34,381 nucleotides of DNA from Opitutaceae bacterium (GTDB lineage Bacteria > Verrucomicrobiota > Verrucomicrobiia > Opitutales > Opitutaceae). The notes under the pieces were generated by a model. That model had not been told where the DNA came from. It ran no database searches and worked only from the letters and a program-made list of their open reading frames with translations. This document shows positions 378-23,410 of the stretch, piece by piece. Within the stretch, counting starts at the first letter, position 1. Each line of letters begins with the position of its first letter. Position numbers and translations under genes: made by a program. The stretch is taken from positions 1-34,381 of the forward strand of contig CANJNJ010000047.1 in the NCBI GenBank assembly GCA_947474995.1, written 5' to 3'.

Positions 378-602
378 CTCTCGGTTGGTGGAGTGGACCG
401 CTACGCGTGGGACGATGGGGGTCACGCCCGTTCGCAACCCGGGTTTTGGCACCGCGGAGCGTGCTGCTCCATTACGAGGCGCCGCCGCCGTGTCGATATC
501 CTCCGGAGTGCGACCGAGGGCGGTCGCGTTCCCGGTCGATGCAACTTTGACGCCCCTTGGCGCGTCTCGACATCCTGCCACCGACCACCATCCTTGATCC
601 CC
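378..602. other. Spacer between tRNA-Arg and gspG with hairpin-forming sequences
   Basis: No convincing gene is present; open frames here are incidental. Two short inverted repeats stand out: GGAGC-GTGCT-GCTCC near 458-472 and GCGACC-GAGGGC-GGTCGC at 510-527. Neither is followed by a T-run, so they are not clear terminators. They look like members of the short dispersed repeats found elsewhere in the window. The gspG promoter should lie here, but no strong -35/-10 pair is evident. Confidence 0.4.
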
Positions 603-1082
603 ATGCGCTTTGTCCGAGAAAATTCCCTGTCTCTTGTGGTCCGCCGTGCGGCTCGCGCCGGTTTCACGCTGCTCGAAATTCTCGTGGTGCTCGCGATCAT
701 CGGCCTGCTCGCCTCGCTCGCGATCACCAATGTGGACAAGATTTTCGGCGGCGCGCAGGTGTCCACCGCGCAGCTCTTCGTGCGCGAAAGCATGAAGACG
801 TCGTTGACCACGTACCGGATCGCGATGGGGGACTATCCGTCAACTGGCGAGGGACTGCAGGCGCTGCTCACCGCACCTTCCAGCAAGGCCGATCGCTGGC
901 ACGGACCGTATCTCGAGGGTTCGAAAGTGCCGCTCGATCCCTGGACGGAGCCCTACCAATACGCGTACCCCGGCACGCATAATAAAAGCAGTTACGATCT
1001 GTGGTCCAAAGGCCCGGACAAGCAGAGCGGAACCGAGGATGACATTGGCAATTGGGATTCAGGCCCGACGGAGGCCAAGTAG
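603..1082 (+). CDS. gspG: Type II secretion major pseudopilin GspG
   Basis: The 159-residue protein has a 20-residue basic leader ending in Gly, then the prepilin peptidase site G|FTLLEILVVLAIIGLL with Glu at +5 and a hydrophobic N-terminal helix. The C-terminal half carries the GspG hallmarks: a PSTGEGLQALL segment, DPW, and a calcium-loop-like GPDKQSGTEDDIGNW stretch. GspG is the major subunit of the periplasmic pseudopilus that pushes folded substrates through the outer-membrane secretin. ATG 603 is chosen because it gives a normal-length leader; the open frame extends further upstream without a leader-like sequence. It heads the gspGHIJKLM operon. Confidence 0.95.
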   Translation: MRFVRENSLSLVVRRAARAGFTLLEILVVLAIIGLLASLAITNVDKIFGGAQVSTAQLFVRESMKTSLTTYRIAMGDYPSTGEGLQALLTAPSSKADRWHGPYLEGSKVPLDPWTEPYQYAYPGTHNKSSYDLWSKGPDKQSGTEDDIGNWDSGPTEAK

Positions 1083-1165
1083 CGCGGCCGGGTATTTGCC
1101 CGCAAAATCCGGGTGCGCCAATCCCGGGAGTTGACGGGCTGGACGCGGCGAATTCCTTCCTACCT

Positions 1166-1744
1166 GTGACGTCATTCGCCACTCGCCGTGCGTTGTCTTC
1201 CGGCCGGCCCCGGGGCGGTTTCACCCTCCTCGAGATTCTCCTGTCGATCGCGATCGTGGCGCTGCTGGCGGCCGTGTTGATCGGCGGTTCGGCCGCGCTC
1301 CTCAACGAGCAACCCCTTTCGCTCGACGAGGTTTTTTGGCGAACGGTGCAGGTGGCGCGGAAGGAGGCGCTGACGTCGGAGCGGGAGATTCGGGTCAAAT
1401 TCGACGTCCAAAAAAAGCAATTCACCCTGCTGGAAGGACTGGCGCCGTCCGCGGCAGGGCCGGATGGAATTATTCCGGAGGAGATTCCCGTGAAGCAGAT
1501 TCCCGTTCCGGCCGGCAATGCGACCGAGCTGGCGATCGATTTTCTGGGTGCGGGCAAGGCCGGAAACTCGATCCTGGTGGGCGGAGTTTTACTCGAGTCG
1601 CAGCCGATCCCCTTCGTCACGTTTTACAGCGATGGCACGTGCACGCCGTTTCGGGTGCAGGTGTCGCGCAACGGCGCCGTCCATACCATGGCGGTTGACC
1701 CCTGGACTTGCGCCCCGGTGCTCGAAACGAAGGAGGGACCATGA
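1166..1744 (+). CDS. gspH: Type II secretion minor pseudopilin, GspH-like
   Basis: It has a prepilin motif GGFTLLEILLSIAIVALLAA with Glu at +5, followed by a globular region without calcium-loop features, as in minor pseudopilin H. The start is uncertain. The frame is open from 1052, inside gspG, but GTG at 1166 gives a short basic leader (MTSFATRRALSSGRPRG) typical of prepilins, for a product of 192 residues. The stop overlaps the gspI start in an ATGA. The order G-H-I-J-K supports the H assignment more than sequence detail does. It probably sits at the pseudopilus tip complex. Confidence 0.82.
   Translation: MTSFATRRALSSGRPRGGFTLLEILLSIAIVALLAAVLIGGSAALLNEQPLSLDEVFWRTVQVARKEALTSEREIRVKFDVQKKQFTLLEGLAPSAAGPDGIIPEEIPVKQIPVPAGNATELAIDFLGAGKAGNSILVGGVLLESQPIPFVTFYSDGTCTPFRVQVSRNGAVHTMAVDPWTCAPVLETKEGP
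1730..1736 (+). promoter_or_regulatory. Strong Shine-Dalgarno for gspI
   Basis: AAGGAGG lies 4 bases before ATG 1741, within the last codons of gspH. It fixes the gspI start at 1741 rather than at the upstream in-frame TTG 1708. It is the clearest ribosome-binding site I see in this operon. Confidence 0.75.
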
Positions 1745-2205
1745 ACCGACCCAGGCACCGGGCGTTCACCCTGCTGGAAGTGCTGGTCTCGCTCACCGTT
1801 TTCGCGCTCGTGGCGATTGTGCTGGGGGCCGCGTACCTGAACGTGCTCAACAGCTACGACGTGGTGAAGCGCGGCATGCTGGTCGGCGAGGATTTCGACT
1901 TTGCGCGGCAGCTCGTGCTCACGGAGCCCGACCGCAAGAAGCTCGAGCTGGGCGGGGAATTTGACAGCGCCGGCGGCCGCCACGCGCGCTGGAGCGTGGA
2001 GATTACGTCCACGACCATGGCTGATTTGTTCAACGTCGTCTTCACCTGCGAGATGTCCGATCCGGCCCGGCCCGAACCCGAGAAACTCGTGCAAAACTTC
2101 ACCCTGTTGCGACCGACGTGGTCCATCGATCCGGCGGAACGCAGCAAGCTGAAAGAAGAGACGAAAACGCGCATCGCCGAAATGCAGCAGAAGATGAAGC
2201 GATGA
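1741..2205 (+). CDS. gspI: Type II secretion minor pseudopilin, GspI-like
   Basis: The 154-residue protein has a very short leader, MNRPRHRA, followed by FTLLEVLVSLTVFALVAIVLGAAY. Glu is at +5 of the mature form. The residue before the cleavage site is Ala rather than the usual Gly, a noticeable departure. Position after gspH and the 4-base overlap with gspJ support the GspI call. In known systems GspI nucleates the I-J-K tip complex of the pseudopilus. The globular part is poorly conserved and not diagnostic by itself. Confidence 0.82.
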   Translation: MNRPRHRAFTLLEVLVSLTVFALVAIVLGAAYLNVLNSYDVVKRGMLVGEDFDFARQLVLTEPDRKKLELGGEFDSAGGRHARWSVEITSTTMADLFNVVFTCEMSDPARPEPEKLVQNFTLLRPTWSIDPAERSKLKEETKTRIAEMQQKMKR

Positions 2206-3182
2206 AGCTGGAACGAACATGGCCCGGGCCAAGCGGGAACGTTGCCGCCTCCACCGCAAAACGCGTTTTGTTCCGGACGGGACGAAACGAAGGTTCTTGT
2301 CGCCCTGCGCGGGAGAGCAGGGATCGCCTTCGGTTCAGGACTGAGTCCCGCTTCTCCCGAAGCGGGCTACAACGGGGTTGCTTCCCAGGAGTGGACGGCA
2401 GAGCCCGTTGTCCCCAACGGGCCGACGCGAGAGCCGACGAGGCAAAATCCGAAAAGGATGCCGGATTCCGCCTTTCAGGGCCTTCGGGTTCGGAGAGAAA
2501 ATGCAGTCCGACTGGCTCCTTCCGGCGGCGGAGTGCGACGGAGCGCCGCGCGGGCTTCACGCTCCTCGAGATTCTCCTCGCGATGGCGCTGGTCGGGCTG
2601 CTGCTCGTGGCCCTCAACACGTTTATTTTCTCGATGGGCGAACTCTGGGGCCGCAACACCGACGTCCGGCTGTTCGAGCAGCACGCCCGCGCCGTCACGC
2701 GATTTCTCGATCACGAGCTGCGGTCCGCGGCCCTGCCGCCCTTTGCGCGGGCGAACTCGACGCCCATCGCGCTGCAGGAGATCAAGCCGCAGGACGGGAT
2801 GATGGAGAACCTGCTGACGTTCGAACTGCCGGCCGGCAGCCGGCTCCTGCGTTGGCCCGACCGGCCCCTGCCGGAGGTGGTGTGTTCGTTCCAAGTCCGG
2901 CCCGGACAGGGCCTCATCCTGCTGTGGCATTCGCGGCTCGAAAAGAATTTCGACACCGATGCGCCGCGCGAAACCATCGTGACGCCGCTGGTCAGTGCGC
3001 TGGCCTATGATTACTTCGACGCCGACTTTAACCGCTGGACGACGGAGACGGCGCTCAAGCTCGACCCGGAGGGCAAGCCGATGACACCCCAGCGGCTGCG
3101 GCTGAGCTTCGGGTACAACAAAATGAAGAGCGAGACCGTGATCACGTTGCCCGCGACCGGCGAGGCGCTGCCGACGTTTTGA
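2202..3182 (+). CDS. gspJ: Type II secretion minor pseudopilin GspJ with a very long repeat-derived leader
   Basis: The prepilin motif (AG|FTLLEILLAMALVGLLLVAL) starts only at about residue 118 when translation begins at ATG 2202, which overlaps the gspI stop in ATGA. Pseudopilin leaders are normally about 5-30 residues. The extra sequence is Arg/Ser/Gly-rich and is encoded by short hairpin repeats (2303-2322, 2347-2366, 2403-2422). The only in-frame alternative start noticed is GTG 2391, which still leaves a leader of more than 50 residues. The mature part (about 208 residues) looks normal for GspJ, with an FLDHELRSA segment and a LSFGY strand near the end. The frame is intact throughout. 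Confidence 0.85.
   Translation: MKLERTWPGPSGNVAASTAKRVLFRTGRNEGSCRPARESRDRLRFRTESRFSRSGLQRGCFPGVDGRARCPQRADARADEAKSEKDAGFRLSGPSGSERKCSPTGSFRRRSATERRAGFTLLEILLAMALVGLLLVALNTFIFSMGELWGRNTDVRLFEQHARAVTRFLDHELRSAALPPFARANSTPIALQEIKPQDGMMENLLTFELPAGSRLLRWPDRPLPEVVCSFQVRPGQGLILLWHSRLEKNFDTDAPRETIVTPLVSALAYDYFDADFNRWTTETALKLDPEGKPMTPQRLRLSFGYNKMKSETVITLPATGEALPTF
2303..2422. repeat. Three hairpin repeats inside the gspJ leader
   Basis: CCCTGC/GCAGGG pairs at 2303-2308 and 2317-2322. CCCGCTTC/GAAGCGGG pairs perfectly at 2347-2354 and 2359-2366 around TCCC. GCCCGTTG/CAACGGGC pairs perfectly at 2403-2410 and 2415-2422, also around TCCC. All three are translated in frame as part of the GspJ leader. Two share the loop TCCC, which suggests a common repeat family. 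Confidence 0.8.
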
Positions 3183-3185
3183 ACG

Positions 3186-4442
3186 ATGAGGAACGCGCCA
3201 ACATCGTTGAGTCGCCTTGGGTTGGTCGTTCCGCCTTCAGGCGGAAAAATGGGGCGGTTCGGATTCCGCCTCAAGGCGGGACGACCAAACAGACGTTTCC
3301 CCCATCGTGGCTCGGTCCTCGTCATCGTCATGGTCACAGTGGTGTTTGCGACCATCGCGCTGATTGCGTTCATGGAGAAGGCGACCACCGATTTACTGAT
3401 TGAGCAGCGCGAGGCGGAGGGTCGCCGGCTGCGGATGGAGGCCTACTCGGCGCTCGAGGTTTCGCTGGCGGTGCTGGAGGAGTTTCGCGCCTTTAATAAT
3501 GGATTGCACAGCTCAGCGGAAGGCTGGACCGATCCGCTGGCCTTTGCCGGCTACACCCCGACGGAGGGTCGGACGGTGGAGGTCACTTTCGAGGACGAGA
3601 GTGGGAAGATTTCGCTCCCGCATGTGACCGCCACGGGCCTGATCAATCTTTTCCGCAACTGGGAAATCACCCAGACCGACGCGGAGATGCTGGCGGACTC
3701 GCTCATGGGCTGGATGAAGAAAAATCACGTCTACACGACCGCCCTGGCGCCGGATTACGAGCAGGCGGCGTTGCCCTTCGCCGAGCCCGGCCGTTCGTTG
3801 CGCTCGTTGCACGAGCTCGCGGCGATCGACAAGATGCGCGAGAAATTTTACGACGCCGAGGGCCGGCCCAACGACTACTGGAAGCGTTTCGCCGACAGCG
3901 TTTCCCTGCTCGATTTCCCGAAGCCTAATCTGAACGGGGCGCGGGCGGACACGCTGGCCGCCCTGGGCCAGTTTGATCGGCTGCAGCAGCAGAAGGTGGG
4001 GGAATACCTCACGGGAGCAGGGATGTTCCAGACCCAGGGCCCGGGTTTCTTTCAGAACGTGAATGAGGCCCAGCGCATCACGGGGCCTACGGGTGATGCG
4101 GCGGGGTTTGCCACCACCATCAGCGCCTTGCGCATTATCATCACCGTGCATGACGGCCGGTCGGTTTTTCGCCTGGCGGCCGTGATGGCCCCACCCGGGG
4201 GGGCGACCACCGTGCAAACCACGGCCACGCGAACGCAGACGCCGGGTGCCGCGGCCCAGACGGCCGCCCAGCAGCAGAACCGGCCCAATGCCGCCAAGGC
4301 GGGCAACCCTCCGGCGGCGGCCGGCAATCGGCCAGCGGTGCCTCCCCGCAATTTGAAATACCCGTTTACGCTCTTGGAAATTCGCGAGAATGATGAGATT
4401 CCTCCCCCTCCACCACCGCCGGTTTCCGACCAATCGATCTGA
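3186..4442 (+). CDS. gspK: Type II secretion minor pseudopilin, GspK-like
   Basis: The 418-residue protein has a hydrophobic segment RGSVLVIVMVTVVFATIALI preceded by a 42-residue leader. It is followed by a large globular domain typical in size for GspK, the cap of the pseudopilus tip. Like other GspK proteins it lacks Glu at +5. Leader residues 13-34 are encoded by a dispersed palindromic repeat (3224-3286). Near the C-terminus an Ala/Gln/Pro-rich low-complexity stretch (about residues 343-390) precedes a KYPFTLLEIREN strand and a run of seven prolines. The gene starts 3 bases after the gspJ stop and ends 2 bases before gspL. Confidence 0.85.
   Translation: MRNAPTSLSRLGLVVPPSGGKMGRFGFRLKAGRPNRRFPHRGSVLVIVMVTVVFATIALIAFMEKATTDLLIEQREAEGRRLRMEAYSALEVSLAVLEEFRAFNNGLHSSAEGWTDPLAFAGYTPTEGRTVEVTFEDESGKISLPHVTATGLINLFRNWEITQTDAEMLADSLMGWMKKNHVYTTALAPDYEQAALPFAEPGRSLRSLHELAAIDKMREKFYDAEGRPNDYWKRFADSVSLLDFPKPNLNGARADTLAALGQFDRLQQQKVGEYLTGAGMFQTQGPGFFQNVNEAQRITGPTGDAAGFATTISALRIIITVHDGRSVFRLAAVMAPPGGATTVQTTATRTQTPGAAAQTAAQQQNRPNAAKAGNPPAAAGNRPAVPPRNLKYPFTLLEIRENDEIPPPPPPPVSDQSI
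3224..3286. repeat. Palindromic dispersed repeat, family F, copy 1 (inside gspK)
   Basis: It begins GGTCGTTCCGCCTTCAGGCGG and ends TTCCGCCTCAAGGCGGGACG-ACC, so its ends are mutually inverted and each half contains a CCGCCTT/AAGGCGG-type hairpin. A second copy lies at 29638-29698 in the opposite orientation. Here the repeat is in frame within the gspK leader. Confidence 0.8.
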
Positions 4443-4444
4443 TC

Positions 4445-5626
4445 ATGTGCGCCTCGCCGCTCAAGTTTCTCAGGGCTGGCCCACCACCACCGAAGGTGGC
4501 GCTGCTGCCTGACGCGCTCTTTTTCACGCGATCGATTCCCATTGTGGGGGAGGCGACGGCGGCGGACATCACGGCGCAGGTCGAGATGGCGTTGGAGGGG
4601 TTTTCGCCCTTTCCGCTGGCGCAACTCTACTATGGCTGGTTCGCGGCGCCCGCGGCCGGCCGGGTGTTTGTCTTCGCCGCGTATCGGCGGCGTTTTACCT
4701 CCGACCAGATCGCGCAGTGGGGTGGGGCGGACCTGGTCATGCCCTCCTTCGCGGCGCTCCTGGGCGCCAGGGTCGAGGCCGGGACCACGGTGGTGGTGAC
4801 GGTGCCGGAAGGGCTGACGGCGGTGCATTGGGAGTCGCCGCTCGTGCCTTCCCGGGTTCTGAGCCGGCCACTCGATCCCGCGGTGACTGACGAGGAGCGA
4901 ACCCGGCTGCGCGGCGAATTGCTGCACGAGATCGGGGCCAGCAAGACGGTCGTGGATCTCTCGCTGGCGCCGGTGGCCGATCCGGCGAAGAGCGCTCAGG
5001 AAATTTCGTTCACGGCGGGGAGCTTGAACTCCCGGCTGCCGGCGGCGGCGACCGCGATGCTCGACGTTCGCGACAAGGGGGAGTTGGCCGGATTGAGGAC
5101 GGCGCGGCGCCGCGACGTGCTGTTGTGGCGCCTGACGCTGGGATGTTCCGCCACCATGGCCGTGCTGGCGCTGGGTGAGTTTGCCCTGATTGGCGGCCGG
5201 GCCTGGCAGAAGGTTCGTGCCACGCAGCTCAACGCGCAAAAGCCGCTGGTGGAAAAAGTCATGGCGGCCCAGGGTTTGGCCAACCGCATCGACGAATTGG
5301 CGACGAAGCGCCTGTTGCCGTTCGAGATGATCACCGTGGTGATTGGGGAAGACGGGACGCCGCGGAAGCCGGCGGAAATAACGTTCGTCCGCGCCTACTC
5401 GAGCGGGATTTACACTTTGTTGGTCGAGGCGAGCACCAACAACATCGGGTTGGTGGCGGTTTGGGAGAACACCGTGCGCCAGTTGCCGGCGTGTGAAAGT
5501 GTCGAAATCCGCAACCTGCGGCCGCGCGGAGAAAGCGCGACGTTCCAACTCGTGGTCACCTTCAAGCCCGACGTGCTGCGACCGATGCCGCTGCCCGGCG
5601 GCAAGGTCGCGTCCAGCCAACCGTAG
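4445..5626 (+). CDS. gspL: Type II secretion inner-membrane assembly protein, GspL-like
   Basis: The 393-residue protein has a cytoplasmic N-terminal part (about 1-225) and one transmembrane helix near residues 230-252, after an Arg-rich stop-transfer-like stretch. A periplasmic part with a ferredoxin-like pattern of beta and alpha follows. This topology, the position between gspK and gspM, and the 2-base spacing support GspL/PilN-type function: linking the GspE ATPase to the inner-membrane platform. Sequence conservation with proteobacterial GspL is low, so the name rests largely on synteny and topology. Confidence 0.72.
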   Translation: MCASPLKFLRAGPPPPKVALLPDALFFTRSIPIVGEATAADITAQVEMALEGFSPFPLAQLYYGWFAAPAAGRVFVFAAYRRRFTSDQIAQWGGADLVMPSFAALLGARVEAGTTVVVTVPEGLTAVHWESPLVPSRVLSRPLDPAVTDEERTRLRGELLHEIGASKTVVDLSLAPVADPAKSAQEISFTAGSLNSRLPAAATAMLDVRDKGELAGLRTARRRDVLLWRLTLGCSATMAVLALGEFALIGGRAWQKVRATQLNAQKPLVEKVMAAQGLANRIDELATKRLLPFEMITVVIGEDGTPRKPAEITFVRAYSSGIYTLLVEASTNNIGLVAVWENTVRQLPACESVEIRNLRPRGESATFQLVVTFKPDVLRPMPLPGGKVASSQP

Positions 5627-5645
5627 CCGCCGAATCCGCTGAACC

Positions 5646-6182
5646 ATGTTTCGCACGCTGCGCATCCTTTTTCTCAGTCGGCTGTTGCGGGAGAAAGTCC
5701 TGTTACTCGGCTTCGTGGCGCTCGGGATGCTTTTGTGGCTGTCGAGTTTCTCGACCCGGGGCGGGCGCTTCTGGCGGGAGCAGCGCACCACGACCGTGGC
5801 GCTAAAGGAGCAGCAGCAATGGCTGGGTAATCGCAGTTCGATCGACGCGGCCGTGCAAAAGGCGGCCGGTCGGCTGGTCGCGGCCAACACTCTGGATGGC
5901 ACGCGGCTGGCGACCGAGGTGAGCAGTCTGGCGAGCTCGGTGGGCTTGCGGAACGCCGGGGGCGAGCCGTCGACCAAGACCAGCAACGGACAATTTTCGG
6001 TGCACACGCTCAATTACACGATTCGCAACGCGGATTTTCTCTCCCTGCTGAAATTCTACGTCGCCCTGCGGGACCGTTCGCCGTACATTGGCATCGACCA
6101 ATTCTCGCTGACGGCGAATCCGGCCAATCCGGCGCAACTTAGTTTGAGTTTGCGGGTCTCGTCCGTGGAGATCGCGCGCTAG
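5646..6182 (+). CDS. gspM: Type II secretion inner-membrane protein, GspM-like
   Basis: The 178-residue bitopic protein has a short basic cytoplasmic N-terminus, one transmembrane helix (about residues 16-36, KVLLLGFVALGMLLWLSSF), a predicted coiled region, and a C-terminal periplasmic domain ending in LSLSLRVSSVEIAR. Size and topology match GspM/PilO partners of GspL. It is the last gene of the left T2SS operon; no gspN or gspC follows. A palindromic site and the DUF3570 operon begin directly downstream. Confidence 0.7.
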   Translation: MFRTLRILFLSRLLREKVLLLGFVALGMLLWLSSFSTRGGRFWREQRTTTVALKEQQQWLGNRSSIDAAVQKAAGRLVAANTLDGTRLATEVSSLASSVGLRNAGGEPSTKTSNGQFSVHTLNYTIRNADFLSLLKFYVALRDRSPYIGIDQFSLTANPANPAQLSLSLRVSSVEIAR

Positions 6183-11232: not shown

Positions 11233-11359
11233 GAGTTGAAGGTTGAAAGGTTAACCGTGAAAGACGAGTTCGACCCGATCCCCTCGCAATTTTACCTATT
11301 CGGTGAGCGGGCGGGGTCGTTCCTGCCGGGCTTTCAACCTTCAACGCTCAACTCTCAAC
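11233..11359. repeat. Inverted dispersed repeat, family D
   Basis: GAGTTGAAGGTTGAAAGGTT at 11233-11252 faces its near-complement CTTTCAACCTTCAACGCTC beginning at 11331 and continuing ACTCTCAAC to 11359, around about 80 bases. A related single arm (CTCAACTTTCAACC) occurs at 27177-27190. The repeat occupies the spacer between the Ig protein and the response regulator gene. The rest of the spacer up to 11458 shows no gene. Confidence 0.7.
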
Positions 11360-11458
11360 GGGATTGCCGGAGGCTCCGCCGGACTTGACGCCCACCCTCC
11401 CAGCGAAAACGCTTCCCGCCAGGGTAGGTTTCCCAACAATCACACCCTCCCTCCTGGA

Positions 11459-12136
11459 ATGCGCATTCTTGTTATTGAGGACGAACGGCAACTCGCCGGA
11501 CACGTTACGCGTGCTTTAACGCGTCGGGGCCACTGCGTGACGATGTTGCACGATGGCGCCGAAGGGCTCCAATCGGCGCAGGACGATCCCCCGGACTTGG
11601 TCCTCCTTGATCTCAACCTGCCGAGTCTCGACGGTCTGACGGTGCTGGCCCGGCTGCGCGCGGCCAAGATTGCCGCGCGGGTCCTCATCCTGACCGCTCG
11701 CGGCGAAGTGGAACATCGGGTCAAGGGCCTGCAGGCCGGCGCGGACGACTATCTGGCCAAGCCGTTTTCCATGGATGAACTGGTTGCGCGCGTCGAGGCG
11801 CTCGGCCGGCGCGGGGCCACGTCGACGCCCGCCGATCTGCTGAAAGTGGCCGATCTCCAGCTCGACGTGCGGCACCGGCGCGTGACGCGGGCGGGCCGGC
11901 CCATTGCGCTGTCGCCGCGCGAGTTCGATGTGCTCCAGGTGCTGATGCAGGAACCCGGCCGGCCCTTTTCCCGGACCGAACTCTGTGAACGCGTCTGGCA
12001 GCGCGATCATGAATACGACACCCGCACGGTCGAAATCTTCATCACCCGACTGAGGAAGAAGGTGGACTCGACGTTTTCCTCGCCGCTCATTCACACGCTC
12101 CGCGGCGTCGGCTATACGCTTCGCGCTTCCGGATGA
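11459..12136 (+). CDS. OmpR/PhoB-family response regulator
   Basis: The 225-residue protein has a receiver domain with E7/D8, phospho-acceptor D51 in LVLLDLNLP, T79 and K101 in LAKPF. A winged-helix DNA-binding domain follows (about 125-225), with LSPREFDVLQVLM, a REHEYDTR-like loop and TLRGVGYTL. ATG 11459 is chosen because it begins the receiver beta-1 strand (MRILVIEDE); the frame extends upstream into repeat sequence. The stop overlaps the next start in ATGA. It is the partner of the histidine kinase two genes on. It may control this operon or copper/redox envelope genes. Confidence 0.93.
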   Translation: MRILVIEDERQLAGHVTRALTRRGHCVTMLHDGAEGLQSAQDDPPDLVLLDLNLPSLDGLTVLARLRAAKIAARVLILTARGEVEHRVKGLQAGADDYLAKPFSMDELVARVEALGRRGATSTPADLLKVADLQLDVRHRRVTRAGRPIALSPREFDVLQVLMQEPGRPFSRTELCERVWQRDHEYDTRTVEIFITRLRKKVDSTFSSPLIHTLRGVGYTLRASG

Positions 12137-12825
12137 ATGCTCCGCCTCTTGCGGCCCGACCACGCTCCCGCTGGTGGCGGCGCGCGATTCTTCCCGCGGC
12201 GCTGCTGGTCCTGACGAGCCCCGGCGCGCGGGCCCAAGTCACGATCGAAGGCCGCATCGCCCTGCCGAAAACCCGCACGACACCCGTGGTCACCCAGCGC
12301 TACGAAATTGTGACGAAGGGGGGCGTGTTCTCGACCAACCCGCCCCTCGCCGTCGTCTATCTCGAGGGGAGCTTTCCGAAGTCGGCCACGCCGGCCGCGG
12401 TGCAGATGACCCAGAAGGATCTTTCGTTCCAGCCGTCGCTGCTGCCGCTGCAGGTGGGAGCGCGCGTGGAGTTTCCCAATCTCGACGACACGTATCATAA
12501 TATCTTTTCGTTCTCCCCCGCGAAGCGTTTCGATCTGGGCCGCTATCGCGCCAACGAGACGCCCGTGCCGTCCGTGGTCTTCGAGGTCCCCGGCCTCGTC
12601 ACGCTGCGCTGCGATATTCACGAGCACATGCGGGCGCTGATTCTGGTGCTCGATACGCCACATTTCGTCATCACGGATCCGGAAGGTAACTTTCGGCTGA
12701 CGGGACTGCCGGCCGGCCGCTACACGCTCAAGGCCTGGGTCGACAGCAAGACGACCAGGGAGCTGCCGGTGGAGCTCACGGCCCAGGGGTCGCTCCGCGT
12801 GGAATTTCCCGCTGTCCCAAAATAG
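12133..12825 (+). CDS. Periplasmic cupredoxin-like protein with carboxypeptidase-regulatory tail
   Basis: The 230-residue protein has a signal peptide (AILPAALLVLTSPGARA). Residues 70-172 have a cupredoxin pattern: H122 in DDTYHNIFSF and C160-D-I-H-E-H-M166, which supply the His/Cys/His/Met set of a type 1 copper site. A short carboxypeptidase-regulatory-like strand domain follows (DPEGNFRLTGLPAGRYTLKAW, written here only as a region at 182-202). Such proteins are often labelled methylamine utilization protein in databases, with little evidence. The gene lies between the response regulator and kinase genes, overlapping the former, so a periplasmic copper or redox signalling role is plausible but inferred. 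Confidence 0.82.
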   Translation: MNAPPLAARPRSRWWRRAILPAALLVLTSPGARAQVTIEGRIALPKTRTTPVVTQRYEIVTKGGVFSTNPPLAVVYLEGSFPKSATPAAVQMTQKDLSFQPSLLPLQVGARVEFPNLDDTYHNIFSFSPAKRFDLGRYRANETPVPSVVFEVPGLVTLRCDIHEHMRALILVLDTPHFVITDPEGNFRLTGLPAGRYTLKAWVDSKTTRELPVELTAQGSLRVEFPAVPK

Positions 12826-12843
12826 GTTTCCTCCCCGCTGCCC

Positions 12844-14664
12844 GTGAATCGCCGTCTGGAACTCGACCCCTTCGAGACTCTGCATCCGGCCCACGACGTC
12901 GGCGCGGAGGCATCGCCAGCGCGGATCGCCGGGTTTCGGCTGAAATTGTTTATCGCGATCATGCTGGTGGTGTCCGCGACGACGGCGATCGCGCTATCGG
13001 TGGCACAACACAACCTCGCCGCCGGCGTGGAGGATGAATTGCGGCGCGAGTTTCAAGGCGAGCAGACGGCTCGCGCCACGGCGCAGGAGGTGCGCCATGC
13101 CGCGCTCGTCGAGCGTTGTCGCGCGTTGGTGCGCAAGCCCCGGATTCATGCCGCCCTCGAGGACGACGCGCTCGATCTCCTGTACCTGAATGCGGAGGAC
13201 GAACTGCGGGACATCATGCAAGGCCCGGAGGAAGTGGCGCCGGAGCGCACGGCGTTTCGGTTGCATGCCGCGTTCTACCGGTTTCTCGGGCGCAATGGCG
13301 CGGTTCTGACTCCGCCCAATCCCCGCTTGGTCGGTGTTCTGGGTGCGCCCGAGGAGGCGCAACTCGCCCGGTCCGGTGCGCCGGCCGAGCAACAGACCGG
13401 CTATTTGACCCAAACCATCGCGGGCGGCGCCGCGACGGTTTTTGAGGTCATTACGCTGCCAATCTTTTCGACCGAGACGGGTGAAGTTATCGCGGCGCTC
13501 GCCTTGGGTTTCAAACCCTTCGAACTGGAGGGGCACGTTTCCCCCTCGGGGATGAAAAGCGGCCTCTGGCTCAACGGATATTTGCATTCGTCAACGCTGT
13601 CGGGGTCGGCCGGCGCCCGGCTGGCCGCCGAAAGCCTGGTTGCTTCCCGTCCGCCCGTGCGGGTGGAACTCGAGGGCGCGCCGCATCTCGTTTTCTCCAA
13701 ACGACTGAATCCCGCCTCCACGTTTTCGCCCGCCTACGAGGTTTGCGTCTATCCGCTCACTGAGTTGGTCGTTCGTCAGGTCCGGTTGCGCTGGCAGTTT
13801 CTCGGGACCGGCGGGTTGCTGCTGCTCGCCGGCCTCGCCGTGAGCCATTGGGTTTCCACGCGCCTCTCCCGGCCGGTGGAAAAACTCGCCGTGGATTCGG
13901 AGGAGAATCGCACCCAGCGCAAACGGGCGGAGGCCGCGCTCGAAATGACCAGTGCGGAATTGCACCGTTCCGCCCGGTTTTCGGCCGATGCTTCGCACCA
14001 GCTCAAGACGCCGGTCACAGTGTTGCGCGCCGGACTGGATGAACTCTTGGCCCGGGAGCATCTCACCCCGGAGCAATGTCAGGAAATTTCCGCGCTCATT
14101 CATCAGACCTACCGCCTGTCGTCCCTGATTGAAGACTTGTTGTTGCTGTCACGAATGGATGCCGGCCGGCTCAAACTGGAGTTTGCGTCCGTGAATCTCA
14201 CCGCGCTGATCGAGGCATCACTGGATGACTTGGGCGCGCTGCCGGATGAACGGCCACTGCAGGTCGAGACCGATTTTCCGGCGGGGCTCCATATCGCCGG
14301 CGAAAAACGCTACACCGCGATGATCCTCCAGAACTTGCTCGAGAATGCCCGAAAGTACAACCGCCCCGGCGGGCGGATTCGACTCACGGCCGCCGTCCGC
14401 GGCGAAAACGTCTGCGTGACGGTCGGAAATTCCGGCCGCACCATTCCCCCCGACGCGCAGGCGCACATTTTCGAGCGTTTCCACCGGGGGGCGATGGGGG
14501 AAAACGTCCCCGGCTACGGCCTGGGCTTGAACCTCGCCCGGGAACTCGCCCGTCTGCACCAGGGGGACCTCCGGCTGGCCGCCTCCGACGCAAACTGGAC
14601 GGAGTTTGAAATCCAATTCCGATTGGCTCACGTTACGCTTCTCCCCGAGCCCGCCCCTGTATGA
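12844..14664 (+). CDS. Membrane sensor histidine kinase
   Basis: The 606-residue protein has TM1 at about 33-53, a periplasmic sensor domain of about 260 residues, and TM2 at about 318-337. A linker with coiled-coil character (ENRTQRKRAEAALEMT) and a HisKA domain follow, with the phospho-acceptor H385 in DASHQLKTP. The ATPase domain has an N-box (N501 in LLENARKYN) and a G-box GYGLGLNLA near 557. The start is GTG 12844, 18 bases after the cupredoxin gene. The sensor domain contains FLGRNGAVLTPPNP and a later ALALGFKPFE segment, resembling Cache-like folds, but I cannot assign a ligand. The stop overlaps the next gene in ATGA. Confidence 0.92.
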   Translation: MNRRLELDPFETLHPAHDVGAEASPARIAGFRLKLFIAIMLVVSATTAIALSVAQHNLAAGVEDELRREFQGEQTARATAQEVRHAALVERCRALVRKPRIHAALEDDALDLLYLNAEDELRDIMQGPEEVAPERTAFRLHAAFYRFLGRNGAVLTPPNPRLVGVLGAPEEAQLARSGAPAEQQTGYLTQTIAGGAATVFEVITLPIFSTETGEVIAALALGFKPFELEGHVSPSGMKSGLWLNGYLHSSTLSGSAGARLAAESLVASRPPVRVELEGAPHLVFSKRLNPASTFSPAYEVCVYPLTELVVRQVRLRWQFLGTGGLLLLAGLAVSHWVSTRLSRPVEKLAVDSEENRTQRKRAEAALEMTSAELHRSARFSADASHQLKTPVTVLRAGLDELLAREHLTPEQCQEISALIHQTYRLSSLIEDLLLLSRMDAGRLKLEFASVNLTALIEASLDDLGALPDERPLQVETDFPAGLHIAGEKRYTAMILQNLLENARKYNRPGGRIRLTAAVRGENVCVTVGNSGRTIPPDAQAHIFERFHRGAMGENVPGYGLGLNLARELARLHQGDLRLAASDANWTEFEIQFRLAHVTLLPEPAPV

Positions 14665-17951: not shown

Positions 17952-19211
17952 TCACCGCGCCATGTTGAAACTCGCGCTGACCTGAAACACGGCGCTCACG
18001 ATCGAGAAGGCGATGAAACCGACAAAAATGAAGACGGCCATCAGCACGCCGCTGGCGATCACCTTGGTGAACATGTTGAGCTGATTCGCGATCAACTTTT
18101 GGTAGGCATTCGCGATTTGCTTCAGGCTCGGCACCACGTTGCCGGTGTTCTCGCCCACCGCGAGGCGGTCGAGCACGAGATCAGGAAAACATCCGGTCCG
18201 CGTCAGGGCCACGGACAGCGCCTCGCCCTCGAGCACGCGCGCGGTGGCGGTGTTGAACGCGGCGCGGTGCACACGATTGTCGATTTGCTTTTCCGTCATC
18301 CGCAGGGCCTCCGCCGCGGTGATGCCATTCTCGAGCAGCACCGACAGCGTCTGGCTGAAGGACAGCACGGTGCGTGCGACGGAGAACGGCCCGAGCAGCG
18401 GCAGTTTGAGGGCCCACGCGTCAGTGACCACGCGGCCCGCCTCGGTTTGGCGCCAGCGCCAGAAGGAAATCCCCCCGAAGACGGCGGCGATCGCCACGAT
18501 CAGGCCGTAGTGGATCGTGAAGTTCGAGAAACCGATGAGGATCCGGGTCGAAGCGGGCATCTTGCCGCCGAGCGACGCGAGCAGGCCTTGCAGGCGGGGC
18601 AGCAGGAAGAAGAGGAAAAACAGAATCACGCCGCCGGACACGAACACCATGAAGATGGGGTAGGCCATCGCGGTCAGTAGCTGCCGCTTCAATTCCTTTT
18701 GGTCCGTGAGGTGCGTGATGAGCCGGGCGAGCGTGTCGTTCAGCGAACCCGTCGCTTCGCCCGCCTGGATTAGATTCGTAATGGACCCATCGAAGACGGC
18801 GGGGAAATTGTCCATCGCCCGTGACAGGGGGGCGCCCTCGCTGATTTGCTCCCAGATGCCCGCGCAGAGCGCGCGCAGCCGCGGATCTTTGATCCGCACC
18901 GACAGCAATCGTACCGCCTCGCCGGCTGACAGCCCGCTGGTGGCGAGGTCGTAGAGGGCTTCGAGAAACGGGAGACACTCTGTGCGGTTCGGCGTAGCCG
19001 CTGCCATCCGGGCGGTTCGCGCCGGACTGCTCGACGCCGATTTGGACGTTTTGGCCCTGGTCGCGCCCGCCCCGGCGGTTTCGGTTACGGACAAGACCTG
19101 CAAATTCCGCGCGCCGAGAATCCGCAGCGCGTCCTTGCGCGCGGGCGCCTCCAACTCGGCGGTGACGGTTTGGCCCGTTTGATCACGGGCGGTGTAAGCG
19201 AACCGGGCCAT
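17952..19211 (-). CDS. gspF: Type II secretion inner-membrane platform protein GspF
   Basis: The 419-residue protein starts MARFAYTARDQTGQTVTAELEA, a typical GspF/PilC beginning, here given only as its family-like opening. It has two T2SSF four-helix domains (about 85-205 and 290-410). Three transmembrane helices lie near 175-200, 230-250 and 390-412. Motifs include LSAGEAVRLL, FSQTLSVLLENGI and GENTGNVVPSL. It carries an unusually Ala/Ser/Thr/Lys-rich linker at about 48-75 between the N-terminal strand domain and the first helical domain. It begins 3 bases after the gspE stop as the last gene of the gspDEF operon. Confidence 0.95.
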   Translation of the reverse strand: MARFAYTARDQTGQTVTAELEAPARKDALRILGARNLQVLSVTETAGAGATRAKTSKSASSSPARTARMAAATPNRTECLPFLEALYDLATSGLSAGEAVRLLSVRIKDPRLRALCAGIWEQISEGAPLSRAMDNFPAVFDGSITNLIQAGEATGSLNDTLARLITHLTDQKELKRQLLTAMAYPIFMVFVSGGVILFFLFFLLPRLQGLLASLGGKMPASTRILIGFSNFTIHYGLIVAIAAVFGGISFWRWRQTEAGRVVTDAWALKLPLLGPFSVARTVLSFSQTLSVLLENGITAAEALRMTEKQIDNRVHRAAFNTATARVLEGEALSVALTRTGCFPDLVLDRLAVGENTGNVVPSLKQIANAYQKLIANQLNMFTKVIASGVLMAVFIFVGFIAFSIVSAVFQVSASFNMAR

Positions 19212-19214
19212 GGC

Positions 19215-21359
19215 TTAGCTGTCGGTCACGGTGATGACCCGCAACACTTCGTCGAAGCTCGTAGAGCCGTTCCGGATTTTTTCCCAGCCGCTCTGCCCGA
19301 GGGTTCGCATGCCGTGCTTGCGGGCGCATTCGGCGAGCGTTCGCGTGCTCTCGCGCTTCAGCACGAGTTCGTGCATTTCGTCGTTGAGTCGGAAGATTTC
19401 GAAGATCCCGATCCGGCCGCGGTAACCGGTGCCGCGGCACCGGTCGCAACCCACCGGCGCATTGAGCACGTCGACCCCTTCTGCCCCCGCGGGATCGCAC
19501 CCGAGGATCGCGAGATTCTCGAGCAGCTTGACCCGCGGAATCGGCGCCGGCTTCGCGCATTCGCTGCAGAGGCGCCGCACCAGCCGTTGCGCAATCACGA
19601 GCTCAATCGCGGAGGCGACGAGGAAAGGCTCGATGCCCATGTCGACCAGGCGGGTGATCGCGCCCGGCGCATCGTTCGTGTGCAACGTCGAAAACACCAA
19701 GTGACCGGTGAGCGAGGCCCGGATGGCGATCTCGGCCGTGTCTTTGTCGCGGATTTCGCCGACCATGATCACGTCGGGATCCTGGCGCAGCACGTGGCGG
19801 AGCGCGTCGGCGAAAGTCAGCCCGATTTCCGGGCGAACCTGCATCTGGTTCACGCCGGGCACCTCATATTCAATCGGATCCTCGATCGTAATGATGCGCA
19901 GGTCGGTGGAATTGATCTTCCGCAGGAACGCATTCAACGACGTCGATTTGCCGGAGCCCGTCGGGCCGGTGACGAGAATGATGCCGTGCGGATAGTCCAG
20001 GATGGTGGTGATCTGGTCCTGCTCGGACGGACTCATGCCGAGCCGATCCATCGTGTACGCCTCCTTCTTCTGATTCAGCAGGCGGAGCGAAATCGATTCG
20101 GCGTAAATCGTCGGGACGGTCGAGACGCGGATGTCGAGCGTGACGCCGTTGGCCTTGAAATTGATGCGGCCGTCCTGCGGCAGGCGCTTTTCCGAAATGT
20201 TCATTCGCGCCATGATTTTCAGACGCGAGATGATGGCGTCCTGAAAGCGCAGCAGGTTTTCGGGGACGGGCACCGGCACGAGCAGACCATCCACGCGGTA
20301 GCGAATCCGCAGCTGGCCCTCCTGCGGCTCGAAGTGGATGTCCGTCGCCTGATCTTCGATCGCTTGCGAAATGACATCGGTCACGAAGCGCACGACCGCT
20401 GCATCCTCGTCGACGATTTCCTCGGCTTCCTTCAGCGCCTCGGGTGCGACATAGCCGTCATCGGTGTCCTCGAGCGACCCGGAGCCGACGCCGAAATTCT
20501 CGATGATGAGCTGGTGGACGCGCTCGGGCACGGCCAGGTGCCACACGAGCGGCCGCGGCGTAAAGGTGCGCAGCCAGTCGGTCATCGTCGCGTCGGGCAG
20601 CCAGGCCGTCGCCAGATGCAGCGGGGCGTTGGCTTGGGGAAAGGGCGGCGCCGAAGCGCCGGGCCCGGTTGGACGAAACTTGATCGGGATGATTTGGTAC
20701 TCGTGCACCAGTCGCGCCGGGAGCAGCCCGCGCGCGTCGGGGTCGGTCTCGAGATTGGTGGCGATGTCGAGGCCGGCGGCCGTGGCCAGCTTGCCGAGCA
20801 CTTCGGTTTCCGGCCGCGCCAGGCCTTGCGCCAGCACCTCGAGACGCTTTTCCCGGGTCGCCTCGCCGATGGCCTGCCGCTGCGCCTCGGTCAACGTGCC
20901 GGCCAGCATGGCGGGCAAGGATTCCGGTTCGGGCACGTGGACGGTCCGAAGGTGGCTCGCGAAAAAGATTCCGCCGCTGGACACCATCTCCACCGCCGCG
21001 ATCACCGACTCGAGCGGTTCGGATTTTGCGACGTAGCCGTGAACGCCGAGCGACATCAGTTCGGCCGGTAGCTGCTCGCGCGAGCCGCCCGTGAGCACGA
21101 GGATCTTTATCCCCGGCAGGTTGCGACGCACCTCCCGGACGATGTCCATCCCCCTGACGTCGGGCAGCATCAGATCGACGATGAGAAGGTCGGGGGTCTC
21201 CTGGCGGACAAAATCGAGGCCAGCCTGGCCCAGGGCAAAATCGCCAATGATTTCGATGCCTTTGACTTTGGCCACGGCGGACCGGAGCAATTGGCGAAAC
21301 AGCGCGTCATCTTCGATGAGCACGGCGCGTTGCTCGCGCATGCTGGATGGCGCCTTCAC
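19215..21359 (-). CDS. gspE: Type II secretion ATPase GspE with N-terminal receiver domain
   Basis: The 714-residue protein has a CheY-like receiver domain at 10-125, with D17/D18, phospho-acceptor D62 in VDLMLP, T90 and K112 all present. An MshEN-type N-domain (about 145-215) and an N2 domain follow. The C-terminal RecA-like ATPase has Walker A GPTGSGKS at 465-472, an Asp box, a Walker B segment VIMVGEIRD and a tetracysteine zinc site (CSEC ... CDRC). GspE powers pseudopilus assembly at the inner membrane. Usual GspE proteins are about 500-570 residues; the excess is the receiver. GTG 21359 overlaps the gspD stop, with ATG 21341 as an alternative. No cognate kinase is adjacent. Confidence 0.95.
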   Translation of the reverse strand: MKAPSSMREQRAVLIEDDALFRQLLRSAVAKVKGIEIIGDFALGQAGLDFVRQETPDLLIVDLMLPDVRGMDIVREVRRNLPGIKILVLTGGSREQLPAELMSLGVHGYVAKSEPLESVIAAVEMVSSGGIFFASHLRTVHVPEPESLPAMLAGTLTEAQRQAIGEATREKRLEVLAQGLARPETEVLGKLATAAGLDIATNLETDPDARGLLPARLVHEYQIIPIKFRPTGPGASAPPFPQANAPLHLATAWLPDATMTDWLRTFTPRPLVWHLAVPERVHQLIIENFGVGSGSLEDTDDGYVAPEALKEAEEIVDEDAAVVRFVTDVISQAIEDQATDIHFEPQEGQLRIRYRVDGLLVPVPVPENLLRFQDAIISRLKIMARMNISEKRLPQDGRINFKANGVTLDIRVSTVPTIYAESISLRLLNQKKEAYTMDRLGMSPSEQDQITTILDYPHGIILVTGPTGSGKSTSLNAFLRKINSTDLRIITIEDPIEYEVPGVNQMQVRPEIGLTFADALRHVLRQDPDVIMVGEIRDKDTAEIAIRASLTGHLVFSTLHTNDAPGAITRLVDMGIEPFLVASAIELVIAQRLVRRLCSECAKPAPIPRVKLLENLAILGCDPAGAEGVDVLNAPVGCDRCRGTGYRGRIGIFEIFRLNDEMHELVLKRESTRTLAECARKHGMRTLGQSGWEKIRNGSTSFDEVLRVITVTDS

Positions 21360-23410
21360 TTCGGAAAAATGCGCTCCAACGTGGACTTCGGCGCGGGCTG
21401 ATAGGCCGGATCGAGCTGTTGTTTGATTTCGTCGCGGGTGGGAAGTTGGTCGACGCGATTCATCGTCTCGGCGTTGTCGACGGCGGGCTTGTTGGTCAGC
21501 ACCGTCGGGCGCAGGAAGAAAATGAGTTCCTGATGGCTTTTCTCCTTCGAACGCGAACCAAGCAGGTCGCCGATGAAGGGAATGGGTCCCAGCCGGCTCG
21601 AGCTCTTGGTGTCGGTCTTTTTCTGAAAACCGCCGAGCACGATGATCTCGCCCGTTTTCGCGGTGATGTAGGAGGTCGTCTGGCGCTGGCCGATGATATA
21701 TTGCGTGTTCTGGTCGACCTGGACGGTGCCGATGACGTCCTGCACGTCCTGCACGATATCGAGCTGCACGGAGCCATCGACGCCAATGAACGGCGTGACG
21801 GTCATCGTGGTGCCGATCTGCTGCTGCGCGACGGTCGAACTCGTCGAAAGTCCATTCGCGGCAGCCCCCGCGGCGGCGACCGTGCCGGTCACGACCGGGC
21901 GGGTTTCACCATTGAAGAACTTCGCCTGCTTGCCATGACTCGTGACAATCGCGGGCACGGAAAGGATCGTGTTGTTGCTCTTGCGCGGGGTCGTGTTGAT
22001 CGAAATTTCCGCGGCGAGGTCGAAGTTGCCGGTGACAAAATTGCTGGCACTCGGGCGGGTCACCGTGCCATTGGTCACGCTGAGCGTGGCCGGCGAACCA
22101 AACGTGCCGTTGAAGCCCACGAGCTTGTCGCCGTCCAGCTTGAGGCCCAGCGCGCTGATGCCAGTCTGGCTGTTGTCGGTGATGGTGACTTCCGCGATGA
22201 CCACCTCGATCCGTACCTGGGCGAGGATGATATCGAGCTTCTGGATCAGCTCCCGAATCAGCCGGATGTCGTCCGTGGTGCCGGAGACCACGACCGAGTT
22301 GCTGCGATCATCGTTCACGACCGTCATGAGGCTGCTGAACTCATTCGAGCCGGTGCCGCCGATGGCGTCGGCGGCAGCCGACACGATATTGGCGGGAACC
22401 GGCCCCGGGGTCGCGGCGGTTAGAGCTTGCGCCACGCCCTGGCCGGGACGCACCGATTGCGAATTGGCCCGCTGGATCGCGCTGGTTTGGCCCGAGATAA
22501 TCTTGCTCAGCACGTTGACGATATCGATGGCCTTCGCGTGATTGAGGGTGATGACCTCGTTGCGGGTGTTAGGATCGGCTTTCACGTCGAGCCGGTCGAT
22601 CAGGTCGTCGAAGAACGCGTGCTGGCGCGGATCGGTGACCAACACGATTTGGTTGGTCCGGTCGTCGGCGCTGTAAGAGGTGGCCTGGCCGAGCTGGATT
22701 TGCAGCGTGCCAGTGAGGATGGTGCGCAGCTTCTGCACCAAGTCGCTCGCCTTGGCGCCATTGCGCAGTTGGTAGAATTTGGGCTTCATCCCGGCCGAAC
22801 TGGGCTTGTCGAGCTGCTGCAGGAGGAGTTCGACGCGCTGCAGATTGCTGACGCTGTCGGTGATGAGGGCAGCGTTGGCGTTCTGGAGCTGGACCGGGCC
22901 GCCGTAGAACGGATTGAGGATACCCTGAAGGAGTGGGACGACTTCAGCCACGCGCATGAACTCGAGCTGGAAAATCTTGGTGGCGACCTTGCCGCTCGCC
23001 GGTTGGTCGAGCGCGGAGCCGGAGATCATCTCCGGTGCCTCCTGTCGGGCGCTTTGCAGGGCGACGACCTTGAGGAAGCGTTCGCCCATCGGGGCCACGC
23101 CGACGCCGTTGAGTGCCAGTACGGTCTCGATGGCAAGAATCGCCTCGGACTTGGGCATCGGCTTCGTGAAACGGAGATTGTAGGTGGCCGTCGGCAGCGC
23201 GGCCGGGCGGAGAATCGTGCGGCCGGTGTAGATTTCGAGAGCGCTCAGAACCGTGTCGATGTCCGCGTCCGGCAGCTTGATCTGAACGAGTTCATCCTCT
23301 GGTTTGGCGGCGGCCGGCGCGGCCGCGGCGGGGGGCGTCTGGGCGCGCACGGCAAAAACCAACGTGGAGGAGAGCACCAGCAGCCAAAGTCGGGCGAAAC
23401 GCGGAGTCAT
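21356..23410 (-). CDS. gspD: Type II secretion outer-membrane secretin GspD
   Basis: The 684-residue protein has a signal peptide (LWLLVLSSTLVFAVRA) and an Ala/Pro-rich spacer. An N0-like domain follows (about 40-130, VQIKLPDADIDTVLSAL), then repeated KH-like N domains (IFQLEFMRVAEVVPLL, FYQLRNGAKASDLVQKL, VITLNHAKAIDIVNVL). The C-terminal secretin core includes VRIEVVIAEVT, TGEIIVLGGF and VPFIGDLLGS-type elements and ends in HQELIFFLRPTVL. It forms the outer-membrane exit gate. A Gln/Ser/Ala-rich insert lies in the third N domain (about 305-350). It is first gene of the operon and divergent from aroC. No lipobox or pilotin-binding S-domain is evident. Confidence 0.95.
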   Translation of the reverse strand: MTPRFARLWLLVLSSTLVFAVRAQTPPAAAAPAAAKPEDELVQIKLPDADIDTVLSALEIYTGRTILRPAALPTATYNLRFTKPMPKSEAILAIETVLALNGVGVAPMGERFLKVVALQSARQEAPEMISGSALDQPASGKVATKIFQLEFMRVAEVVPLLQGILNPFYGGPVQLQNANAALITDSVSNLQRVELLLQQLDKPSSAGMKPKFYQLRNGAKASDLVQKLRTILTGTLQIQLGQATSYSADDRTNQIVLVTDPRQHAFFDDLIDRLDVKADPNTRNEVITLNHAKAIDIVNVLSKIISGQTSAIQRANSQSVRPGQGVAQALTAATPGPVPANIVSAAADAIGGTGSNEFSSLMTVVNDDRSNSVVVSGTTDDIRLIRELIQKLDIILAQVRIEVVIAEVTITDNSQTGISALGLKLDGDKLVGFNGTFGSPATLSVTNGTVTRPSASNFVTGNFDLAAEISINTTPRKSNNTILSVPAIVTSHGKQAKFFNGETRPVVTGTVAAAGAAANGLSTSSTVAQQQIGTTMTVTPFIGVDGSVQLDIVQDVQDVIGTVQVDQNTQYIIGQRQTTSYITAKTGEIIVLGGFQKKTDTKSSSRLGPIPFIGDLLGSRSKEKSHQELIFFLRPTVLTNKPAVDNAETMNRVDQLPTRDEIKQQLDPAYQPAPKSTLERIFPK

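Follow-up and report, generated by a model that had tools for sequence, protein, structure and literature searches.

Secretion and pilus motors are otherwise controlled, in the literature passages available, via transcription, c-di-GMP or separate partner proteins. For PilB, the available passages of a 2024 review place the receivers involved in control on separate proteins (PMC11656802). MshEN domains also occur with receiver (REC) domains in other proteins, such as Bd2402 of Bdellovibrio, as described in the available part of Wang et al. (2016, PMC5013675), so there is precedent for the association of a receiver with this ATPase superfamily. Among the papers listed in a literature search by titles and abstract openings, none showed a fusion of a receiver to GspE. 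Here we describe such a fusion in a genus that we call Opitutus-like, because its relatives are metagenome-assembled genomes of Opitutus, Opitutaceae and other Verrucomicrobiota.

The window, by which we mean the whole stretch of 34,381 nucleotides analysed, comes from a 5.24 Mb draft genome and contains a receiver and a secretion ATPase encoded in one open reading frame (Table 1). Within the 714-residue protein, Pfam Response_reg matched residues 13 to 123 (E 4.7e-19, 69 bits against a cut-off of 30.2) and T2SSE matched residues 317 to 707 (447 bits against a cut-off of 24.9), which bears out the first-pass annotation of an N-terminal receiver ahead of a GspE ATPase. Receiver and ATPase share a single frame in three genomes. 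The length of the frame is itself no evidence for fusion, since several unfused loci also have long upstream open frames. A chance open frame was rejected for the receiver, given homologous in-frame receivers in two further genomes and dN/dS ratios of 0.23 to 0.33. The GTG at 21359 overlaps the gspD stop codon, and this GTGA overlap was found in all three fused genes. It had been suggested earlier that use of the ATG at 21341 would leave the receiver untranslated; that ATG is only six codons downstream of the GTG, and the whole receiver is still encoded from there. On all sequence evidence, the receiver is predicted to be translated together with GspE.

Table 1. Coordinates of the fused gene, its predicted parts and neighbouring features in the window.
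Feature	Position	Strand	Description
Other T2SS genes, gspG to gspM candidates	393..6182	+	
gspG	393-1082	+	over NCBIfam cut-off
gspH, gspI, gspJ candidates	within 393..6182	+	below NCBIfam cut-offs
gspK	3186-4442	+	Pfam over cut-off
gspL, by position only	4445-5626	+	between gspK and gspM
gspM	5646-6182	+	weak
Local two-component pair	11303..14664	+	PhoB-type regulator 11303-12136, histidine kinase 12844-14664
gspF	17952..19211	-	directly downstream of the fused gene; Pfam T2SSF; NCBIfam GspF best match, 251.3 bits, below cut-off of 424
Receiver-GspE fusion gene	19215..21359	-	714 aa; GTG start overlaps gspD stop (GTGA)
GspE N2 and RecA-type ATPase core	19218..20411	-	Pfam PF00437, E 5.2e-134
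GspE N1 region, residues 147-310	20430..20921	-	sub-threshold MshEN similarity; unfused orthologues start up to ~25 residues ahead of it
Linker between receiver and GspE body, residues ~131-146	20922..20969	-	three-fusion alignment; pLDDT <50 at 135-146
Receiver domain, residues ~10-130	20970..21332	-	Pfam PF00072, fold, alignment
gspD secretin	21356..23410	-	directly upstream of the fused gene, 4-base overlap; Pfam Secretin and Secretin_N; NCBIfam type_II_gspD 293.9 bits, below cut-off of 351.35

Among the T2SS genes of the window, gspC was not identified, and the open reading frame in the position of gspL gave no Pfam or NCBIfam match. Two proteins of about 600 residues with Ig-like domains (9404-11215 and 15961-17766) flank the two-component pair near the T2SS genes, and related Ig proteins follow gspF in many relatives' stretches. 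These two proteins are possibly T2SS cargo.

The best NCBIfam model for the 714-residue protein was type_II_gspE, with 534.8 bits. As this score is below the cut-off of 630.25, we note that the name GspE rests on the best match together with the operon context. The translation carries GPTGSGKS and CxxC...CxxC, which we take to be the Walker A and cysteine motifs of a GspE core, and the PDB relatives of the ATPase were PilB and GspE. The N1 region had earlier been read as a normal MshEN domain, a description that does not hold: the isolated N1 segment reached only 19 bits against the Pfam cut-off of 23.1, and a scan of the whole protein at E 0.001 did not list MshEN. The 24-residue c-di-GMP motif given in the available part of its source (PMC5013675) was found neither in the window's protein nor in any of 61 GspE sequences, but five paralogue loci lacked it too, so this negative result, obtained without a positive control, is weak. 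The same genome encodes a second secretion or pilus ATPase (L003:478-2691, G000:C32; 738 residues from stop to stop), in which an N-terminal GAF domain is followed by MshEN and T2SSE, so sensory additions to such motors are not unique to the fused protein. Paralogues in several relatives have frames about 740 to 780 residues long.

The receiver is present in a small minority of related GspE proteins. We compared 61 gspE loci (30 + 2 + 29, with 7 of the 30 from other families of the order), representing 44 distinct GspEs, 37 of which fall within the genus. Three of the 61 loci encode a receiver (2 of 30 and 1 of 31 by set), in agreement with the earlier view that canonical GspE lacks this domain. 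Within the genus these are the window protein, the protein of genome G003 (locus L030/L073, where the ATPase is cut by the contig end) and L077 (SIBG01000126.1, Opitutus sp. Baikal-deep-G227). The first-pass annotation had proposed mapping the range of the N-terminal receiver; it extends to 3 of 37 distinct GspEs in the genus, and outside the genus no full-length match was listed. Specifically, a profile of receiver plus N1 was searched in 273 genomes from the order and in 387 from the phylum, two sets that overlap and each include two genomes of the genus; at most 8 and 6 candidates per genome were scored, respectively, and the sole full-length hit among the matches listed was the window's own. 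Among plasmids, none of the best 5000 records had one place covering 80% of the query. These wider searches would miss fusions built from unrelated receivers or carried on chromosomes of other phyla. Sequence comparison thus marks the receiver as a lineage-specific addition to GspE, and the lineage appears to do well without it, since the other 34 of the 37 distinct GspEs in the genus lack one. The GspE body of the window protein is 82% to 92% identical to genus orthologues in matched stretches, and close relatives have receiver-less orthologues up to about 90% identical. In the unfused loci, L022 left aside, GspE starts at most about 25 residues ahead of the LPxxL...EQRQ stretch, which in the fusions comes after the linker.

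A search of 27 genus genomes with the receiver gave stand-alone proteins as its best matches outside gspE. The window genome has two of these, 60% (L067) and 52% (L068) identical to the receiver, each consisting of a receiver and a GerE DNA-binding domain; a GerE match was absent from the fused GspE (Pfam). We use the name RR-A for the conserved regulator of NarL type, with REC and a LuxR-type DNA-binding domain, that was found in 23 of the 27 genomes. In the four others, the best match was more distant (G024 and G011), a fragment (G007) or not listed (G038). Over residues 10 to 130, the three fusions had mean identities of 57.9, 65.3 and 59.4% to the 23 RR-A receivers, compared with 41.3% to 60.3% to six paralogues, and the RR-A receivers had a mean identity of 87.9% among themselves. 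By these comparisons the RR-A receivers are the closest relatives of the fused receiver, which probably derived from one of them. Five residues (D18, L25, R52, V74 and S113) are common to the three fusions and occur in none of the 23 RR-A receivers, with V74 and S113 each present in one of four paralogues. The active-site places in RR-A are D, E, D, T and K in 23 of 23.

RR-A is usually encoded beside an Hpt gene. The window genome, with just two Hpt matches in total, shows this arrangement, as do 19 of 22 loci taken from as many other genomes. Of the three remaining loci, L119 ends at a contig edge, and L123 and L125 had no Hpt match. An NtrC-like receiver protein lies on the other side of RR-A in 10 of the 22 loci; likewise, RR-A of the window genome (L067:5275-8190, G000:C76) has an NtrC-like receiver protein on one side and an Hpt protein on the other. 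Two PilT-like ATPases (L067:9287-12179) are encoded near RR-A, and part of this gene order recurs in some relatives.

The history of the fusion is less simple than its composition. Descent of the fused loci as one clade on gspD and gspE was rejected (AU p 1.2e-84; concatenated alignment of 36 of the 37 genus loci, with L092 dropped for its short gspD piece). The GspD tree required three changes for the fusion state, and by eye the three fused loci lie apart in the GspE tree; the single change counted on the GspE tree compares fused with outgroup rows only and is no argument for a clade. In the receiver tree, the three fusion receivers join at 89/47 with 33 rows and at 94/91 when the long rows L134, L128 and L129 are removed. 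The L077 and L073 receivers group at 97/87 and are 67.8% identical, more than L073 is to any RR-A. Grouping of the L009 or the L073 receiver with the RR-A of its own genome was not rejected (p 0.26 and 0.095), and long-branch effects may influence the receiver grouping. Single descent would need many losses or transfer, because the fused genes form no clade on gspD and gspE. Recent transfer of the receiver is unlikely, since its dS (0.98 to 1.02) is like that of N1 and core (0.77 to 1.07), with all of these values near saturation. No remnant of a decayed receiver was found in unfused loci when 33 receiver sequences were searched against eight stretches representing six distinct loci (two were given twice), including L011, L015 and L031; the best E value was 0.007, from short matches on both strands. 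The gspD-gspE gaps of L011, L015 and L031 are about 200 to 400 bases and contain, by eye, short palindromic repeat-like stretches. The patchy distribution could reflect an old gain with many losses, an old transfer or repeated capture. We tentatively favour an old fusion, with later losses or old transfer accounting for the pattern.

Structure prediction and substitution patterns are consistent with a maintained receiver. In the AlphaFold model, residues 10 to 127 adopt the canonical five strands and helices, with block pLDDT values of 81 to 93 except for 54 in the block 91-100. The whole-protein model was poor (mean pLDDT 53.9), probably harmed by four regulator rows that had been added to its alignment and were spread out by MAFFT; a model of residues 1 to 310 without these rows had a mean pLDDT of 60.8. 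Foldseek with the full model gave GspE and PilB chains in the top rows at low TM, and NarL-family receivers matched the receiver part, including 3f6c_B (TMt 0.86, rmsd 1.8 A). By the NG86 method, receiver dN/dS was 0.33 for window-L077, 0.33 for window-L073 and 0.23 for L077-L073, compared with 0.14 to 0.16 for N1 and 0.04 to 0.06 for the compared part of the core (residues 317 to 500). The receiver is therefore the fastest-evolving part of the fused protein, yet constrained, and is under purifying selection. The first-pass annotation had stated that all phospho-transfer residues are kept, and alignment confirmed D17, D18, D62, T90 and K112 in all three fusions. Together, purifying selection and the intact active site suggest that the receiver is likely a working phospho-switch.

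The fusion, its intact active site, the purifying selection on it, its relation to RR-A and its restricted range are computed properties, from which we infer phosphorylation of D62, a donor and an effect on the motor. We lean slightly towards a reading in which GspE gained a working, RR-A-derived receiver in some lineages, and the RR-A relay phosphorylates D62 and so switches secretion. The receiver would have been inserted behind the start codon that overlaps gspD and ahead of the GspE body, and because of this position a GspE chain begun at that codon would carry it. The phosphorelay that acts on RR-A would then phosphorylate D62 as well, the candidate donor being the Hpt protein whose gene adjoins that of RR-A. 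Phosphorylation of receivers changes their alpha4-beta5-alpha5 face; a changed face on GspE could modify its assembly, or the way it docks to GspL or GspF, and secretion would be switched without new transcription. The beta4-alpha4 loop is 38% like the RR-A consensus in each of the three fusions, and alpha5 is 55, 45 and 27% like it, as expected if the output face had changed partners. However, this argument is limited, as alpha1 (36%), beta2 (38%) and alpha2 (42%) of the window protein are about as unlike RR-A as its output face. Also weighing against this reading are the small share of genus GspEs with a receiver, the faster evolution of the receiver relative to N1 and core, and the failure of the three fused genes to form a clade on gspD and gspE.

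Gene content in the Baikal genome (G624) bears on the relationship between the fused receiver and RR-A. There, RR-A was matched at residues 191 to 234 only and the neighbouring NtrC-like gene from residue 211 only; the two remnants abut (L178:4741-5747, G624:C134), and RR-A keeps only its DNA-binding end. Fused GspE aside, the next match over the RR-A receiver was 39% identical, and the Hpt gene still scored over the Pfam cut-off. True deletion and misassembly are equally possible explanations. If the deletion is real, the fused receiver is the last RR-A-type receiver in that genome. A bolder reading, which we regard as doubtful, is that a phosphorelay shifted its output from a promoter to a machine: with the receiver grafted onto the T2SS motor, one Hpt protein would drive gene expression and also turn secretion on or off directly, and the Baikal motor may have become the sole terminal receiver of the relay. 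The fused receiver could instead be a phosphate sink or reporter that competes with RR-A, with the amount or state of the motor setting RR-A transcriptional output and little effect on the motor itself. Its active-site chemistry is the same as that of RR-A and the two are closely related, and RR-A is full-length in the window genome and G003. In G624, however, the fused receiver persists while that of RR-A is apparently missing, an absence that does not fit a pure sink but could be an assembly fault. We consider the sink unlikely.

The receiver might also serve for docking or dimerisation, with no phosphorylation involved. There is precedent in the FimX receiver, which has no aspartate and matters for placement of the pilus motor, according to the available passages of the 2024 review (PMC11656802), and the faster evolution of the receiver relative to the rest of the protein is compatible with such a role. 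On the other hand, the five phosphotransfer residues are kept in all three fusions despite pairwise identities of 54.5% to 67.8% between the receivers, which makes a module of this kind improbable.

Returning to a phosphorylated receiver, the Hpt protein is a candidate donor because RR-A, the receiver's closest relative, usually adjoins an Hpt gene. The alpha1 segment of receivers usually carries partner specificity, and alpha1 of the fusions is 36, 57 and 57% like the RR-A consensus; since this kinase-facing segment is not specially conserved, it argues little for a donor shared with RR-A. The first-pass annotation had suggested cross-talk from the histidine kinase of the window, which lies close to the fused gene and carries both HisKA and HATPase_c. 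Comparison with relatives did not support this suggestion. A kinase 59% to 66% identical follows gspDEF in the unfused loci L137, L138 and L139, accompanied by the PhoB-type regulator in L137 and L139 (the L138 stretch ends before that position), and the 8 kb beginning at gspF in fused G003 (L074) gave no match to the kinase; the L077 stretch stops short of this region. Kinase and receiver thus do not go together, and the GspE receiver is of NarL type versus the PhoB type of the local regulator. Phosphorylation by this kinase seems very unlikely, and the RR-A/Hpt relay appears the better candidate phosphodonor. Least credible of all is a passenger receiver, with translation mostly from inside the frame (for example from Met151, close to the start region of unfused orthologues) and GspE working without it, as neither of the other two fusions keeps Met151, selection on the receiver is purifying and the GTGA overlap is conserved.

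The fusion, RR-A and the receiver-less orthologues (up to about 90% identical) form a natural before/after pair, which bears on how two-component signals are wired into a secretion machine and on the gain and loss of regulatory domains. From the domain fusion we predict that signalling could feed straight into the secretion machine. The protein resembles GspE/PulE (T2SSE, PF00437) in its ATPase core, Walker A motif, gspD-gspE-gspF order and the other T2SS genes of the window, but adds an N-terminal receiver and has an N1 that is weakly MshEN-like. Its receiver resembles those of NarL/FixJ regulators, represented by RR-A, with 55% to 67% identity over residues 10 to 130 and the same Asp, Thr and Lys. 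In contrast to these regulators, the output of the fusion is a secretion ATPase, with no DNA-binding domain, and the fusions have D18 where RR-A has E and an altered beta4-alpha4 loop. Proteins of the Bd2402 type likewise join a receiver to a domain family of secretion ATPases, but the available part of their description (PMC5013675) contains no gspDEF-encoded receiver-GspE, and the MshEN match of the fused GspE is below the cut-off. The FimX-PilZ-PilB and PilG/PilH systems also bring input of two-component type to an assembly ATPase of the same superfamily, as the available passages of the review describe (PMC11656802); in those systems a separate protein carries the receiver, whereas in the GspE fusion it is a covalent part of the motor. 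As far as our searches reach, what is new is that a gspDEF-encoded GspE carries a complete, covalently attached receiver and that its genome also encodes a related regulator today.
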